A stretch of 64,000 bases of DNA from Alphaproteobacteria bacterium (GTDB lineage: Bacteria; Pseudomonadota; Alphaproteobacteria; Micropepsales; Micropepsaceae), in assembly GCA_009693985.1 (NCBI GenBank), contig SHWE01000002.1, positions 1 to 64,000 on the forward strand. Reading direction: 5' to 3'. The position numbers were made by a program, and so were the translations under genes. This document shows positions 10,596-61,340 of this stretch, piece after piece. Under the pieces are notes generated by a model that had not been told where the DNA came from, searched no databases, and saw only the letters and a program-made list of their open reading frames with translations. The first letter of the stretch is position 1; each line of letters opens with the position of its first letter.

Positions 10596-11695
10596 GTATG
10601 CGGACGACGCCGCCGTTCCGGTCCGATGAGGTCGGGAGCCTGCTGAGGCCCGCGGCTTTGAAAGAGGCGCGGGCGAAATATGCCAGAGGCGAGATCGGCG
10701 CGGGCGCGCTCAAAGAGGTCGAGGATCGCGAGATCGCCGCCGTCATCAAACAACAGGAAGCGATAGGGCTGAAAGCCGTCACAGACGGCGAATTCCGCCG
10801 CGCCTGGTGGCATTTCGATTTTTACGGCGCGCTCAGCGGCGTCGAATTGCGCGAAGTGGATTCGGGCATCCAGTTCCAGGGCGTGCAGACCAAGGCGCAG
10901 GCGCCGCACATCGTCGGACAACTCGGATTTCCAGGTACGCATCCGATGGTCGAGCATTTTCGCTTTCTGAAAGCCCACGCGAACGCGACGGCGAAGATGA
11001 CCATTCCCTCGCCGAGCGTGCTTTATTTCCGCGTCGCCTCGGTGGACAAAAAACTTTATCCCGACCGCGAGGCATTGTTCGCGGGTCTCGCCGAAACCTA
11101 CCGCCAGGCGATTCGGGCGTTTTACGATGCGGGCTGCCGCTATCTGCAATTCGACGATACGGCCTGGGCCTATCTTTGCTCGAAGGACGAGATGGATAAG
11201 GCGAAGCAGCGTGGCACCGATGTGAACGGTCTGGCGCAAGCCTATGCGCGCACGATCAATGAAGCGCTTGCCGCGAAACCGGACGACATGACGATCACGA
11301 CGCATATTTGCCGTGGCAATTTCCGCTCGACCTGGATCACGTCGGGCGGTTACGAGCCGGTGGCCGAGGTGCTGTTCGGCGCCACCAATTACGACGGCTA
11401 TTTCCTCGAATATGACAGCGACCGCGCTGGCGGCTTCGAACCCTTACGTTTCGTGCCGAAGGGCAAGAAGCAGATCGTGCTCGGCCTCATCACGACGAAG
11501 ACGGGTGCGCTGGAAAAGAAGGACGACATAAAGCGCCGCATCGCGGAAGCGGAGAAATATGTCGCTCTCGATCAGCAGTGCCTGTCGCCGCAATGCGGCT
11601 TCGCCAGCACCGAGGAAGGCAATATCCTTGGCCATGACGAGCAATGGGCGAAGCTGCGCCTCGCGGTGGAAATCGCCCGTGACGTGTGGGCTTGA
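10592..11695 (+). CDS. Cobalamin-independent methionine synthase-like protein (MetE C-terminal domain type), copy 1
   Basis: 367 residues corresponding to only the C-terminal, catalytic barrel of MetE, like the YxjG/YxjH group. Putative zinc ligands are visible: His and Cys in TTHICRGN, Glu in YFLEYDSD and Cys in LSPQCGFAS. The N-terminal half of true MetE is absent, so the methyl donor and substrate may differ from classical methionine synthesis. The N-terminus [19 protein letters not shown] is typical of this group. A paralogue with the same motifs lies at 43341-44456. The start ATG overlaps the DUF1489 stop. Confidence 0.85.
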   Translation: MSMRTTPPFRSDEVGSLLRPAALKEARAKYARGEIGAGALKEVEDREIAAVIKQQEAIGLKAVTDGEFRRAWWHFDFYGALSGVELREVDSGIQFQGVQTKAQAPHIVGQLGFPGTHPMVEHFRFLKAHANATAKMTIPSPSVLYFRVASVDKKLYPDREALFAGLAETYRQAIRAFYDAGCRYLQFDDTAWAYLCSKDEMDKAKQRGTDVNGLAQAYARTINEALAAKPDDMTITTHICRGNFRSTWITSGGYEPVAEVLFGATNYDGYFLEYDSDRAGGFEPLRFVPKGKKQIVLGLITTKTGALEKKDDIKRRIAEAEKYVALDQQCLSPQCGFASTEEGNILGHDEQWAKLRLAVEIARDVWA

Positions 11696-36532: not shown

Positions 36533-36604
36533 CCTCTCTCCCCTTGAGGGAGAGGGCGGCGCGCTGCGCACGTCAGTGCGCCAATAGCGCGCCGGGTGAG
36601 GGGT
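36533..36604. repeat. Palindromic repeat, CCTCTCCC/GGTGAGGGG type, copy 1
   Basis: A hairpin CTCTCCCCTTGAGGGAGAG is followed by a second palindromic core (GCGCGC...GCGCGC) and the end GGGTGAGGGGT. The same layout occurs at 61143-61217 inside another gene. Here the right half (36573-36604) encodes the last ten residues and stop of dusB on the reverse strand. Confidence 0.75.
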
Positions 36605-37625
36605 GCGCATTACTCCACAAAGCAACCAAACCAGACTCCACTTCCGCAGGGCTTTCCAAGCGACAGAGTTGCGATTTGGCGCTACGGCGCGCGTCGGCGC
36701 ATATCGGCCACGGCGCTTTCTCGATGTACCAGCCGAGATGTTTGCGGAAAATCTTCAACCCCAGCACGTCGCCATAGAAGCGCAGAGAGTCCCGCAAATG
36801 ATCGAGCGCAATGTCGAGACGCATCCGTAAGTTCGGTTCGGCGATATCCCCGTCCGTCTCCAATGCGCGGTCGATGGCGGATGCGATCCACGGCCGTCCA
36901 TAGGCGCCGCGTCCGATCATGATCGCATCGGCGCCCGATTGCGCCAGCGCCTCGCGCGCGGAATGTCCGTCGGTCACATCGCCATTGACGATGACGGGAA
37001 GGCGCGTGGCGGCCTTCACCGCCGCGACGCCGCGCCAATCGACGGCGCCATTGTAGAATTGCTGGCGTGTGCGCCCGTGAACGGTGATCGCCTTGGCGCC
37101 CGCTTCTTCCGCCCGCGCCGCAAGTTCGGGTGCGTTTTTCGTCGCATCGTCCCAGCCGAGCCGCATCTTCACCGTGACGGGGCGGGGCGTTGCCGCAACC
37201 GCCGCTTCGATCAACTGAATTGCGTGGTCGAGATCGCGCATCAGCGCCGAGCCCGACGCCGCACCGGTCACTTCCTTGCACGGACAGCCCATATTGATGT
37301 CGATGATGTCGGCGCCGGCCGCCGTCGCCATCGCGGCGCCCTTGGCGATCCAATGGGCCTCGCGCCCGACAAGCTGGATGATCGTCAGCGGCAGCCCGTC
37401 GCCGACGGCGGCGCGGCGCACCACATCGGGTCGCCCGGCCGCGAAACTGTCGCACGCCACCATCTCCGTCGCGACATAGGGCGCGCCGAGTTTCGAGGCC
37501 ACGCGGCGGAAGGGCAGGTCGGATACGCCCGTCATCGGCGCGGTCAGGACGCGGCCGGGAATATGCACATCGCCGATATGAAAGCCGACACTCGGAAGGG
37601 TGGAACGCGAGACCATCGTCCACAT
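36573..37625 (-). CDS. dusB: tRNA-dihydrouridine synthase (DusB-like)
   Basis: 350 residues. A flavoenzyme that reduces uridines in tRNA. Motifs: LTAPMTGVSDLPFRRVA, MVACDSFAAG, DINMGCPCKEVTG with catalytic Cys116, KMRLGWDD, ITVHGRTRQQFYNG and GRGAYGRPW. The C-terminal HPSPGALLAH is encoded by a palindromic repeat rather than by a conserved end, so the native terminus was probably replaced. ATG 37616 (MVSRST) is an alternative start. Confidence 0.92.
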   Translation of the reverse strand: MWTMVSRSTLPSVGFHIGDVHIPGRVLTAPMTGVSDLPFRRVASKLGAPYVATEMVACDSFAAGRPDVVRRAAVGDGLPLTIIQLVGREAHWIAKGAAMATAAGADIIDINMGCPCKEVTGAASGSALMRDLDHAIQLIEAAVAATPRPVTVKMRLGWDDATKNAPELAARAEEAGAKAITVHGRTRQQFYNGAVDWRGVAAVKAATRLPVIVNGDVTDGHSAREALAQSGADAIMIGRGAYGRPWIASAIDRALETDGDIAEPNLRMRLDIALDHLRDSLRFYGDVLGLKIFRKHLGWYIEKAPWPICADARRSAKSQLCRLESPAEVESGLVALWSNAHPSPGALLAH

Positions 37626-43344: not shown

Positions 43345-44456
43345 ACAGCGCTGCCCCAGATATCGTTGGCGGTTTCGACGATCAGCGCGAGTTTACGCTT
43401 CTCGACATCCTCGGTGATTTTGTTGCCATGATGGGTGCTGGCGAAGCCGCATTGCGGCGACAGGCATAAATTTTCCAAGGGAAAGAATTTCTCCGCTTCG
43501 TCGATGCGCCGCTTCAACTGATCCTTGGACTCGATCTCCGCCCGCTTGGAGCTGACGATGCCGAGCACGACCTTCTTGTCTTTGGCGATATATTTCAGCG
43601 GCTCGAAGCCGCCCGAGCGGTCGCTGTCATATTCCAGGAAATAGCCGTCGACATCGGGCTGATTGAAGACGGCGCCCGCCACGCGGTCATAACCGCCTTC
43701 GGCCATCCACATGCTTTGGAAATTGCCCCGGCAGGTATGCACCGTGACGATCATGGAGTCGGGCGCGCCGGCGGCGATGTCGTTCACGATTTTCGCATAA
43801 TCGCGCGTCACCTGGTCGGGATCGAGCCCGTCCTGGCGGATGCGCTCTCGGATCGTGGCGTCGCACAGGAAAGCGAAGGAAATCTCGTCGAGCTGCAAAT
43901 AGGTGCACCCCGCCGCCGCCAGATCGCGCATCTCCTCATGAAAGGCGCGTACAAGATCGCGCCAGAATTCGGCGATGTCGGGATAGGCCGTCTCAGCTAC
44001 CGTCTTGCGTCCGCCGCGCATGTGGATCCAGGTGGGCGAGGGGATACAGACCTTCGGCGTACGCTTGGTCGCGGCTTTGAGGAAATTGAACGAATCCAGC
44101 ATCACCGGTTTGTTGCGCTTGATCTTGCTCGTGACCGTCAGCATCGAACGGGTTTCGCCACTCTCGCCGCCGTCGCCTTTGAAGGCGAGCGCATAGCTGG
44201 TGTTGGTCGGAACGATGCCTTCGAAACCCGTCAGAAAATCGACGAGATAATGGCCGCGGCGGAACTCACCATCGGTGATGGCGTGCAGCCCCGCGGATTC
44301 CTGCAAGGCGACGGCGTCGCGAATGGCCCTGTCTTCGACGGTGCGCAAATCGTCGGCGCTAATCTCGCCCTTGGCCCGGCGATCGCGCGCCTCATGCAGC
44401 GCTGCCGGCCGGAGCAGGCTTCCGACGTGATCGGCGCGAAACGGCGGCTTCGCCAT
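43341..44456 (-). CDS. Cobalamin-independent methionine synthase-like protein (MetE C-terminal domain type), copy 2
   Basis: 371 residues, paralogue of the gene at 10592-11695. Shared features include [32 protein letters not shown] (His, Cys), [16 protein letters not shown] (Glu) and [15 protein letters not shown] (Cys), the probable zinc ligands. ATG 44456 is chosen; it lies 16 bp after the atpF stop, in a tandem 17-bp duplication, so it may be transcribed with the F0 operon. The substrate is unknown, since the N-terminal half of MetE is missing. Confidence 0.85.
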
Positions 44457-52937: not shown

Positions 52938-53057
52938 ATTGTCATCCCCGGCGAGCCTTGCAACGCAAGGCGAGGGAAGGGGACCCAGGTGTCAACATCT
53001 GTCGATGTCGATACCTGGGTTCCCTTCCCCTCGCTTCGCTCGGTCGGGAATGACAAT
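52938..53057. repeat. Intergenic palindromic repeat, ATTGTCATCCCC type, copy 1
   Basis: Ends ATTGTCAT and ATGACAAT are exact inverses, and a long inner stem pairs GAGGGAAGGGGACCCAGGT with ACCTGGGTTCCCTTCCCCTC. It fills the gap between the convergent mutY and ccrM genes and could act as a bidirectional terminator. A second copy is at 58066-58201. Confidence 0.85.
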
Positions 53058-55289: not shown

Positions 55290-56000
55290 ATGGCGGAGCG
55301 ACGCAACGATTTTGGACAGCTAATCGGGCCGGAGCTTCCGGGCTGGACGGTGCGTGCGCTTCCGTCTGCCGAGCCGATGGAAAAGCGATATTGCAAGATT
55401 GAAAAACTTGATGCCTTGCGCCACGCCGCCGATCTTTATGCCGCCTATACGGAAGCGTCCGACGGACGCGACTGGACCTATATGCTTTCGGGGCCGTTCG
55501 CCGATGCCGTTCAATATGCCGGTTATGTGCGCGAGGAAGCGGCCAAACGCGATCCCTTTCATTACGCGATCCTGGACAAAGCAAGCGGGAAAGCGTGCGG
55601 CACCGCCGCGCTGATGCGCATCGATCCCGCCAATGGCGTCATCGAAGTCGGCCATATCGCCTATGCGCCGCGCCTTAAAAAAACGCGGGCGGGCACCGAA
55701 GCGATGTTTCTGCTGATGGCCCATGTGTTCGATGCGCTTCGTTACCGGCGCTATGAATGGAAATGCGATTCCCTCAACGCGCCGTCGCGCCGCGCCGCCG
55801 AGCGCTATGGATTTCGTTACGAAGGCGTCTTCCGCCAGGATCGCATTTACAAGGGCCGCAGCCGCGACACGGCCTGGTTCTCAATCACCGATGCCGAATG
55901 GCCCGCGCTTCGGTCTGCGTTCGAGGCGTGGCTGGCGCCGGGGAATTTCGACGCCGGCGGCAACCAGCTTCGTTCGCTGGAAACGATCCGCGCCGGGTGA
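55290..56000 (+). CDS. GNAT family N-acetyltransferase (RimJ-like)
   Basis: 236 residues. GNAT fold of the RimJ/L subgroup: acceptor-side YTEASDGRDWTYMLSGPF, the YAILDKASGKACGTAALMRIDPANGVIEVGHIAYAP strands, and the acetyl-CoA helix TRAGTEAMFLLMAHVFDALRYRRYEWKCDSLN followed by AAERYGFRYEGVFRQ. The substrate is unknown. It starts 25 bp after a compound repeat, and its stop is within a repeat-like GGGTGAGGGGTGAG stretch. Confidence 0.88.
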   Translation: MAERRNDFGQLIGPELPGWTVRALPSAEPMEKRYCKIEKLDALRHAADLYAAYTEASDGRDWTYMLSGPFADAVQYAGYVREEAAKRDPFHYAILDKASGKACGTAALMRIDPANGVIEVGHIAYAPRLKKTRAGTEAMFLLMAHVFDALRYRRYEWKCDSLNAPSRRAAERYGFRYEGVFRQDRIYKGRSRDTAWFSITDAEWPALRSAFEAWLAPGNFDAGGNQLRSLETIRAG

Positions 56001-56072
56001 GGGGTGAGCCCCCCACCCGACGCAATTCGCTTCGCCCATTGCGTCGACCTCCCCGCGTTGGGGGAGGTGCAT
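55994..56072. repeat. Palindromic repeat, CCTCCCC/GGGGGAGG variant
   Basis: Starts GGGTGAGGGGTGAG at the end of the GNAT gene and ends in ACCTCCCCGCGTTGGGGGAGGT, a strong hairpin, with an internal ACGCAATTCGCTTCGCCCATTGCGT dyad. It is related to the elements at 36533 and 61143 through the GGGTGAGGGGT end. It separates the convergent GNAT and radical SAM genes. Confidence 0.65.
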
Positions 56073-56079
56073 GACGGCG

Positions 56080-57174
56080 TCAGACCGCTAGCGCCAGCTG
56101 GTCGCCCGCCTTGGCCGGGCGGCGGAATTTCGTCAGATCGAGCGCCCAGCGATCCTGATTGAGACCGAGGCGGCGCTTGGCGATGGCGAAGCGCTGGGCG
56201 ATCAGGCTCGCATAGGGGCCTTTCCCCGTTTGGCGCAAATGCCATTGGGCGTCGTAATCCTTGCCGCCGCGCATCGAGCGGATCAGCGACATCACGTGCT
56301 TGGCCGCATCGGGCCGGTGCGCTTCCAGCCATTCGCGGAACAGATCCTTGATCTCGAGCGGCAGGCGCAAAAGCGTGTAGCCGGCGCCGGTGGCGCCCGC
56401 TTCGGCGGCGGCCGCGAGAATGGACTCCAACTCTTCATCGTTGAGTGCCGGGATCAGGGGCGCCGCCATCACGCTGGTGGGAATGCCCGCCGCACTCAAT
56501 GCGCGGATCGCATCGAGCCGTCGCTGCGGCGTCGCCGCGCGGGGCTCCATCGCCCGCGCGAGGCCCTTGTCCAGCGTGGTGACGGACAGCGCCACGCGTG
56601 CGAGACCCTCTTTCGCCATCGGCGCCAGAATGTCGATGTCGCGCGCGATCAATGCCGATTTGGTGACGATGCCGACCGGATTCTTGAACTCCGCCAGCAC
56701 TTGCAGGATTGACCGCATGACGCGCCATTCGCGCTCGATCGGCTGATAGGGATCGGTGTTCGTTCCTATCGCGATCACTTGCGGCTTGTAGGACGGCTTT
56801 CTCAACTCCGCATCGAGCAGCTTGGCGGCATCCGGCTTGACGAACAGCTTGGTTTCGAAATCGAGCCCGGGCGACAGGCCGAGATAGGCGTGGGTCGGCC
56901 GCGCGAAGCAATAGATGCAGCCATGCTCGCAACCCCGATAGGGATTTATCGACTGGTTGAAGGAAATATCCGGCGAGGTGTTGCGCGCGATGATGGTGCG
57001 GGTGGAATCGCGCGTGACATGGGTGCGGAGCGGCGGCGGGGCGTCGTCTTCCGGAACCCAACCGTCATCAAAACGCACGCGGCGCTCTGAATCATAGCGG
57101 CTTGAATCGTTCGAACGCGCGCCCCGGCCCTTCAGGAGCCTTGGGTCTGCCGCCGCGGAGAGTATTTCCGTCAT
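56080..57174 (-). CDS. Radical SAM protein, PA0069/SplB-like
   Basis: 364 residues. The cluster-binding motif is CEHGCIYCFARP, a CxxxCxxC in the segment SINPYRGCEHGCIYCFAR. Further features are PQVIAIGTNTDPYQPIE, AVSVTTLDKGLARAMEPRAATPQRRL-like VALSVTTLDKGLAR and the C-terminal RRLGLNQDRW. The group includes the PA0069 and Rv2578c proteins; a DNA-photoproduct-type reaction is suggested by family resemblance only. No neighbouring gene indicates a substrate. Confidence 0.88.
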   Translation of the reverse strand: MTEILSAAADPRLLKGRGARSNDSSRYDSERRVRFDDGWVPEDDAPPPLRTHVTRDSTRTIIARNTSPDISFNQSINPYRGCEHGCIYCFARPTHAYLGLSPGLDFETKLFVKPDAAKLLDAELRKPSYKPQVIAIGTNTDPYQPIEREWRVMRSILQVLAEFKNPVGIVTKSALIARDIDILAPMAKEGLARVALSVTTLDKGLARAMEPRAATPQRRLDAIRALSAAGIPTSVMAAPLIPALNDEELESILAAAAEAGATGAGYTLLRLPLEIKDLFREWLEAHRPDAAKHVMSLIRSMRGGKDYDAQWHLRQTGKGPYASLIAQRFAIAKRRLGLNQDRWALDLTKFRRPAKAGDQLALAV

Positions 57175-57352: not shown

Positions 57353-58066
57353 ATGAAATTTCTTATGGGCGCGGCTTTCGCAGCTCTGCTCTTGGTGCCG
57401 ATCGCCGACGAGGCTTCTGCCCGTGGCGCGATGCAAGGTCCCGCGCCGGGAGCATCCTCCGGCGGTGGAGGCGGCGGAGGCGGTGGAGGTGGAGGCGGTA
57501 GAGGTTTCGGCCGTGGCGGCGGCGGTGGCGGTGGTGCCGCGATCGGCGGCAATGGCGGACGCGGCAACGGTTCTTTCTCGGGCGGCGGCGGTGGCCGTGG
57601 GTTCGGCAATGGCGGACGCGGGCCCGGTTACGGTGGTTATCGCGGCAATCGCGGTTTCCGCGGGCGCAGCAGCGTGATTATCGCGCCGGGCTATTATCCT
57701 GGCTTCTACGATCCGTTCTATCCTTACGGTTACGGATATGGATCGAGCTTCGGCTTCGGCTACAACAGCTATTACCCGTACGATTATCCGTCTTACGCCT
57801 ATGTGCCGCCGCCTCGCGGTGGCGATTATCTGGAGGACGATTACCTTCCGCCTCCGGAACAGTTCGGACCGGCGCCGGCGCAGGCTTGGTATTATTGCTC
57901 CAGCCCCGAAGGCTATTACCCCTATGTGCGGGAGTGCTCGGGCGAGTGGCAGTCGGTGCCGGCGAATCCTCCGGGCACGCAGGGCCAAGGACCGCAAGGG
58001 TTCAATGAGCCCGCCGATCTTTCCGGTCCGCCGGACGACAGGGCGAGTCTCGATCCTCGGAATTGA
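57353..58066 (+). CDS. Exported glycine-rich protein with Tyr/Cys-rich C-terminal domain
   Basis: 237 residues. Signal peptide MKFLMGAAFAALLLVPIADEASA. A Gly/Arg/Asn-rich region follows (about 30-105), then a Tyr/Gly/Pro-rich region, and a conserved-looking end: AWYYCSSPEGYYPYVRECSGEWQSVPANPPG, where two Cys flank YYPYV. The C-terminal part is found on many exported proteobacterial proteins of unknown role. The Gly-rich part may be disordered or adhesive. Its stop codon adjoins a palindromic repeat. Confidence 0.8.
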   Translation: MKFLMGAAFAALLLVPIADEASARGAMQGPAPGASSGGGGGGGGGGGGGRGFGRGGGGGGGAAIGGNGGRGNGSFSGGGGGRGFGNGGRGPGYGGYRGNRGFRGRSSVIIAPGYYPGFYDPFYPYGYGYGSSFGFGYNSYYPYDYPSYAYVPPPRGGDYLEDDYLPPPEQFGPAPAQAWYYCSSPEGYYPYVRECSGEWQSVPANPPGTQGQGPQGFNEPADLSGPPDDRASLDPRN

Positions 58067-58201
58067 TTGTCATCCCCGGCGAAGCCCGCGCGTCAGCGCG
58101 GGCGGAGGGAAGGGGATCCAGGTCTCGACATCTGCTTGATGTTGGGACCTGAGTTCCCTTCCCCTCACATTGCTTCGCAATGCTCGGCCGGGAATGACAA
58201 T
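58066..58201. repeat. Intergenic palindromic repeat, ATTGTCATCCCC type, copy 2
   Basis: The ends ATTGTCAT and ATGACAAT match those of the 52938-53057 copy, as does the inner GGAGGGAAGGGGATCCAGGT/ACCTGAGTTCCCTTCCCCT stem. It occupies precisely the gap between the stop codons of the convergent Gly-rich protein and moaB genes, contributing a base to each stop. Confidence 0.85.
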
Positions 58202-60497: not shown

Positions 60498-61340
60498 TCA
60501 GGCAAGCCCGAGCTGCTCGATTTTCTCGCGCACCGTTAACAGGTCGCGCCAGGCTAGACGTTTCGCGCTCGCTTGGCGCAGCAGATAGGCGGGATGCAAT
60601 GTCGGCATCACCGGAATGGCCCGATTAAGACCTGCGCTTTGATAGGTCTCCCATTTTCCGCGCAGACGCATGATGCCTTCGCTTGTTCCGAGCACATGGC
60701 GCGCGGCGACGGCGCCGAGCAAAATGATGATCTGCGGTTCGGCCAGTTCGATATGGCGATGCAGGAAGGGAAGGCACGCGGCGGCTTCCTCGGGACTGGG
60801 ATCGCGATTTTGCGGCGGGCGCCAGTTCAGCACATTGGTGATGTAGACCTTGGTGCGGTCGAGACCGATGGACGCCAGCATGAGGTCGAGCAGCTTGCCG
60901 GCGCGACCGATGAAAGGCAGGCCTTGGATGTCTTCATCGCGCCCCGGCGCTTCGCCGATCAGCATGATGCGACCCAGGGGATTGCCGTCGGCGAACACCG
61001 TCGTCGTGGCGTGCTTCTTCAATTCGCAGCCGTCGAAATTCTCCAGCGCGGTCTTGAGTTCGGAAAGATTATTGGAGGAGGCCGCCAACGCCCGCGCCGC
61101 ACCCGGCGCGGTGGACAAGGACACCGCCTCGGCGGCCTTGTTCCCCTCTCCCCTTGTGGGAGAGGGCGGCGCGCCGCGCGCTGGAGGCGCGCTTATGGCG
61201 CGCCGGGTGAGGGGTGAGCTGGTGTCCGCGTTTCCGGCCTTAAGCCGATTGACCGGCGCCTCGCCGATGGCTTCATCAGCGCCCGCGTCCACCAGCCAGC
61301 TCAAGGCTTCGAGCGATTGTTCGCGGGTCCGTTCTATCAT
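60498..61340 (-). CDS. Uracil-DNA glycosylase, family 4-like, with an in-frame palindromic repeat
   Basis: 280 residues. Removes uracil from DNA. The catalytic parts are [25 protein letters not shown] and the [10 protein letters not shown] motif near the end. Of the four cluster cysteines of family 4 enzymes only two are evident (in FDGCELKK and AAACLPFL); Trp stands in VLNWRPP where a Cys is usual, so an Fe-S cluster is doubtful. Residues 42-66 ([15 protein letters not shown] and PPSPTRGEG) are encoded by a palindromic repeat element, in a linker before the catalytic domain. Confidence 0.9.
61143..61217. repeat. Palindromic repeat, CCTCTCCC/GGTGAGGGG type, copy 2, inside the UDG gene
   Basis: Same layout as 36533-36604: hairpin CCCTCTCCCCTTGTGGGAGAGGG, a GCGCGCC-rich palindromic core and GGTGAGGGGTGAG at the end. 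The span is 75 bp, a multiple of three, and is read through without stops on the reverse strand. Confidence 0.8.

Follow-up and report, generated by a model that had tools for sequence, protein, structure and literature searches.

REP-like palindromes in the linker of a family-4 uracil-DNA glycosylase in an alphaproteobacterial family

The uracil-DNA glycosylase gene and its copy of repeat A

The window analysed here, a 64-kb stretch of DNA, belongs to a fragmented MAG (2.0 Mb, 63.6% complete) of a relative of Rhizomicrobium, its closest named relatives being Rhizomicrobium-like Alphaproteobacteria. Two of its genes, and the two copies of a palindromic repeat (repeat A) associated with them, concern us:

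60498-61340, minus strand: uracil-DNA glycosylase (UDG), family 4, 280 residues, with an N-terminal helix, a linker predicted to be disordered and a catalytic domain (TIGR00758, PF03167)
61143-61216, 74 nt, minus strand: in-frame copy of repeat A, coding for UDG residues 42-66 (25 residues)
61144-61166, no strand: terminal hairpin of repeat A, CCCTCTCCC-CTTGT-GGGAGAGGG (helix 2 of the covariation analysis, 93.6% of cells paired)
61168-61204, no strand: second hairpin of repeat A, nested and GC-rich
36573-37625, minus strand: reading frame of the tRNA-dihydrouridine synthase (Dus) DusA, with PF01207 at residues 28-304
36533-36605, minus strand: the window's other copy of repeat A, 84% identical to that in UDG and overlapping the 3' end of dusA

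The UDG reading frame scores 211.6 bits against TIGR00758 (E 6e-63; curated cut-off 125.3), which places its product in family 4, and the Pfam UDG domain (PF03167) occupies residues 117-267. The protein also matches PDB 1ui0 (E 2e-43), and its PDB relatives span the catalytic part and the stretch just preceding it, nothing further. In the AlphaFold2 model, the element and the bulk of residues 35-66 have a pLDDT below 50, and almost the whole catalytic domain exceeds 90. Given this low pLDDT, and PDB relatives that cover only the catalytic part and the adjoining stretch, the linker looks disordered and tolerant. The first-pass annotation had set a palindromic element in the linker ahead of the catalytic domain and had matched it to another copy in the window; both points were borne out, 61143-61216 matching 36533-36605 at 84%. 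Its view of that second copy as purely intergenic did not hold, as the DusA frame runs about 30 nt into the repeat, from which the last nine or so codons and the stop codon derive.

Upstream of the element, the N-terminal segment of UDG (..L..L.WLV.AGADEA..E.PVNRL) is conserved in frame not only within the family but also outside it, and between the sister species G036 and G037, 14 of its 26 identical residues use different codons. Many synonymous changes amid conservation of the protein make translation of this segment probable, and with it that of the element lying before the catalytic domain. The same conservation makes it highly improbable that the true start codon lies downstream and that the element forms a 5' untranslated hairpin, for all that alternative GTG/TTG codons follow the element and that a caution of this kind is known for REPs near N-termini (PMC3733652). 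It is barely credible that a short-read assembly, fragmented and incomplete as this MAG is, joined two contigs at the repeat, considering that the two flanks make up a single UDG, correctly ordered and in frame, and that the same layout occurs with other repeats in near-complete genomes (e.g., G048 and G044).

Repeat A has ends of the CCCCTC/GAGGGG type, and Rfam has no match over the element. Within the second hairpin, the outer stem (GGCGCGCC) pairs 61168-61175 with 61197-61204, and the inner stem (GCGCGC) 61176-61181 with 61187-61192. Compensatory changes mark the outer stem across 38 copies (33 double-change cells, vs 6.9 shuffled); as it varies on both sides together, the hairpin itself is conserved. 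Length in multiples of three, put forward initially as a property of the repeat, is ruled out as a hallmark by the copy lengths: trimmed to a common core, 40 copies measure 59-79 nt, and only 12 of these lengths are divisible by three. The UDG copy is in frame without a stop, as was also claimed, but this is nothing special, since 163 of the 240 frames examined across the copies are open. Because copy lengths do not run in threes and most frames are open, it is the site and not the repeat that accounts for the keeping of frame in UDG.

The MAG holds nine full-length copies of repeat A, that in UDG being 92% identical to G000:C47:6823-6893; the reversed hairpin pattern, used as a control, has zero matches in the genome. 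The 21-nt hairpin has exactly two matches within the window, and shuffles have none. The other eight full copies lie between genes or at gene ends, often beside 3' ends, leaving the UDG copy as the only full one inside a gene. The genome search proposed in the first-pass annotation does find further copies, nearly all of them extragenic; as to other in-frame copies, UDG is the only gene in the genome with a clear internal one. Full or partial copies are present in 24 of 96 genomes of the family, and among the 38 copies from genus and family genomes that could be tested, a single one, again that in UDG, is in frame within a recognised gene. Candidates for in-frame copies in many other genes were rejected: the spanning reading frames are without a Pfam match or have a domain starting downstream, and as the domain begins downstream, repeat A lies upstream of the gene in some of them. 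Separately, a 16-nt fragment of A sits at 55989-56081 of the window beside another palindrome, CCTCCCCGCGTTGGGGGAGG, and in G047 several partial copies cluster within about 50-700 bp (C51:7007-7731 and C59:12320-12499), in contrast with the single copies of other genomes.

Repeat types in the UDG linkers of relatives

UDG was found in five other genomes of the genus, none of them with repeat A and all with linkers unrelated in sequence; residues 42-66 are absent from these orthologues, as an insertion would predict. Distant orthologues bearing the same residues in unrelated codons, which at the outset were held to count against a repeat origin, were not seen among 78 UDGs of the family and 23 from outside it. 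The linkers of several Rhizomicrobium-like relatives hold other repeat-like peptides (NPPLEGGSK.., ..TLPQGEG..). Across the family, UDG genes were taken from the genomes and the linker was read in 78; in-frame palindromic repeats are present in 17 of them, of at least three clearly different sequence types:

Type A: one linker, that of the window's genome only
Type B, AACCCTCCCCTTGAGGGAGGGTCGAAA..TTTCGGGGAGGGGT: twelve linkers, often as an inverted pair
Type C: two linkers (G018 and G040)
Type D: one linker (G063)
Type E: one linker (G030)

Type B is itself dispersed, occurring in 45 of the 96 genomes (reversed-pattern control, 0), with 156 half-copies in G048 and a dispersed variant in G055. 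E-like copies are present in other genomes, and G062 and G034 carry dispersed hairpins resembling D. BLAST at E 1e-3 detected neither C nor D at other places in the genomes whose linkers hold them, and C turned up nowhere else. Repeats A and B may be distant relatives, as they are weakly similar at one end. A degraded repeat in the linker of G005 was considered and judged unconvincing. Among 23 UDG linkers from other families of the class, there was no match to A or B. In one of these other families, the UDG linker of L401 (G357) reads RPPPQPSPFQAEGG, and its DNA carries the palindromes CCCTCCCC..GGGAGGGG and CGAAGCTTCAGCTTCG; this is possibly another in-frame repeat outside the family, with a fold not clearly more stable than shuffles.

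The linkers with A and B were also identified by profiles built solely from copies outside UDG. The A profile finds a strong match only in the linker of the window's genome (6.9e-17), its other matches being weaker than 0.01, and the B profile finds twelve linkers, all at E below 1e-5. The peptide coded by the repeat copies is rich in Pro, Arg and Gly, and chance resemblance of a Pro/Arg-rich linker to a repeat is ruled out, as neither profile matches any of 468 control sequences (codon-shuffled and catalytic-domain). Repeat-bearing linkers exceed the others in length (median 72.5 vs 55 residues, p 4e-7; 74 vs 48 within group g5, p 9e-8). G003 and G005 have linkers of roughly the same length as that of the window's genome, which speaks against a clean insertion. 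Repeat linkers also fold more stably relative to codon shuffles (median z -5.5, vs -0.05 without a repeat; p 1e-7). Four carriers (G018, G030, G047, and G055) show little excess folding and are, on that ground, decayed or weaker cases.

Origin and persistence of the linker repeats

We consider it highly probable that a dispersed REP-like palindrome lies in, or has replaced, the UDG linker, kept in frame and translated, and that the linker has been filled more than once in the family. A copy of such a repeat would have inserted into the sequence that encodes the disordered linker, or taken the place of part of it. Copies that keep the frame would survive there, because the linker tolerates almost any peptide, a tolerance that is probable from the structure model. 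Translation of such copies would yield a Pro/Arg/Gly-rich stretch; with time the copies would drift or give way to others, and palindromes of different sequence types would have filled the same linker on more than one occasion. The proposal that new in-frame peptide arises in this lineage from a dispersed intergenic palindrome is, at the level of sequence comparison, supported, with other palindromes occupying the same linker in relatives.

On a tree built without the linker, which cannot separate gain from loss, linker states change at least 15 times, and B alone at least 10 times. The site was compared with other species of the genus and family, and insertion is the presumed direction of change. 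In two sister pairs (G036/G037 and G027/G051), the repeat occupies the place of a different Pro/Ala-rich stretch in the sister, which makes linker replacement as likely as simple insertion. For type B, we give an even chance to a single ancient event: UDG of the g5 ancestor would have acquired an inverted pair and passed it on to descendant species, most of which would since have lost it or let it decay, with conversion from other copies refreshing the hairpin stems. This would be compatible with the rest of the explanation above. All B halves in UDG linkers share a frame on each side, and the copy of G020 and G027 is common by descent (97% nucleotide identity, all 26 residues identical), which together favour at least partly shared ancestry. 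G020, moreover, has almost no other B copy, and remnants of a second half are found in G020 and possibly in G041 and G062. Against a single entry stands the scatter of B over the tree, with its many changes of state. In addition, the B stems differ between UDG carriers yet stay palindromic, and the G048 copy matches a copy in its own genome at 52 of 53 positions, as against 47 of 54 for the UDG copy of its sister G044, which points to re-insertion or conversion. Even under one ancient entry of B, separate events are required for repeat A in the window's genus and for one or more of types C-E.

It is improbable, in our view, that the element is kept for what it does in the protein or mRNA, a longer basic or proline-rich linker or a strong mRNA hairpin changing UDG activity or expression and, for example, raising the mutation rate, an effect suggested before for REPs of other repair genes (PMC3733652). 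The repeated occupation of one gene's linker, with no clean in-frame copy detected elsewhere in two genomes, and the published over-representation of REPs inside genes for DNA replication and repair (PMC3733652), are consistent with such a function. Yet the seventeen carriers differ in peptide and length, most orthologues do without a repeat, and sister species differ; the high conservation of the G020/G027 copy, which might otherwise argue for function, is weak evidence, as there is little difference anywhere in the gene.

The two genomes in question are those of the repeat-rich relatives G048 and G029, where about 123 B sites outside UDG yielded zero calls of an open, same frame with coding on both sides, under a test that recovers some 50% of in-gene controls. 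The UDG sites themselves escaped that test, owing to the shortness of the coding part upstream of the repeat, and a looser version of it yielded five candidates, all weak and antisense-looking. Copies inside other genes are thus rare, though a handful may have gone undetected. That the UDG linker is a true hot spot, where repeats enter or exchange preferentially and are kept as they alter uracil repair or UDG expression, seems doubtful; if it were true, dispersed palindromes would repeatedly retune a repair enzyme in this family.

Relation to known repeats

Repetitive extragenic palindromes (REPs) have been described in coding regions of several species, many in replication and repair genes (uvrA, uvrB, recB, dnaE2, polA, and others), with recB of two Xanthomonas species carrying a REP at about the same site, and flexible linkers or loops were proposed as neutral sites or, alternatively, effects on mutation were suggested (Di Nocera et al., 2013; PMC3733652). 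Like those REPs, the repeats reported here are dispersed palindromes, mostly extragenic, in frame within a repair gene and at a linker site, with dimers common. The published REPs end in GTAG or CGTC, whereas A ends CACCCCTCACCC.. / ..GAGAGGGG and B ends ACCCTCCCC.. / ..GGGGAGGGG, both without such a tag, which leaves them outside the tagged superfamilies. As REPs inside repair genes are already published, the phenomenon is known; UDG is not named in that text, and our literature search found no paper linking repetitive extragenic palindromes with UDG. What is new is that several repeat types have repeatedly come to occupy a single UDG linker within one family. Among close sister species, the same enzyme can be compared in forms that contain repeat-derived segments of several kinds and in forms that have none. 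Such a natural series opens two questions to testing: by what route non-coding repeats turn into protein, and whether tolerance or selection lies behind the reported excess of REPs in DNA-repair genes.

The element had also been likened to the palindromic elements of Rickettsia (RPE), and in part this stands: repeat A is palindromic and dispersed, also extragenic, in frame inside a conserved gene of an alphaproteobacterium and absent from orthologues. By its layout and position, not by sequence comparison, it may work like an RPE. RPE, however, lie inside unrelated proteins, whereas the window's genome has one gene with a clear internal copy and belongs to a different lineage, and such palindromes are not confined to Rickettsia (PMC3733652, PMC2759123). 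Among enterobacteria, the open frames of intergenic RU-1/2/3 repeats, small mobile sequences, were found within annotated proteins (Delihas; PMC2759123); these are MITE-like and of 127, 168, and 103 bp, in contrast to the shorter palindromes here, which are without target duplications. Abutting direct repeats of 3-7 nt were found at none of 84 B pairs, and the 37 A copies examined gave a single 3-nt match (0.1 expected) and nothing longer; mobilisation as a MITE thus finds no support.

Inverted palindrome pairs of B, about 100-200 bp across, recall the REPINs and BIMEs associated with RAYT transposases. Unlike in those systems, no RAYT (Y1_Tnp) was found in G000, nor in the repeat carriers G006 (99% complete) and G005 (96% complete), which hold full or partial copies. 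One RAYT each is present in G001 and G002, with no repeat copy nearby, and mobilisation by RAYT, as of a REP or REPIN, finds no support, as none of these five genomes has a RAYT flanked by the repeat.

Two further similarities were seen in the window. CGTC-type REPs are common in Alphaproteobacteria, and two related repeats at 52938-53040 and 58066-58174 (TGTCATCCCCGGCGA.., with CCA-like tails) look like members of this type, forming a second, unrelated repeat family in the window. A long inverted similarity joins 11385-11622 with 43423-43657 (70-91% over up to 91 nt); these are probably two paralogous genes in opposite orientation.
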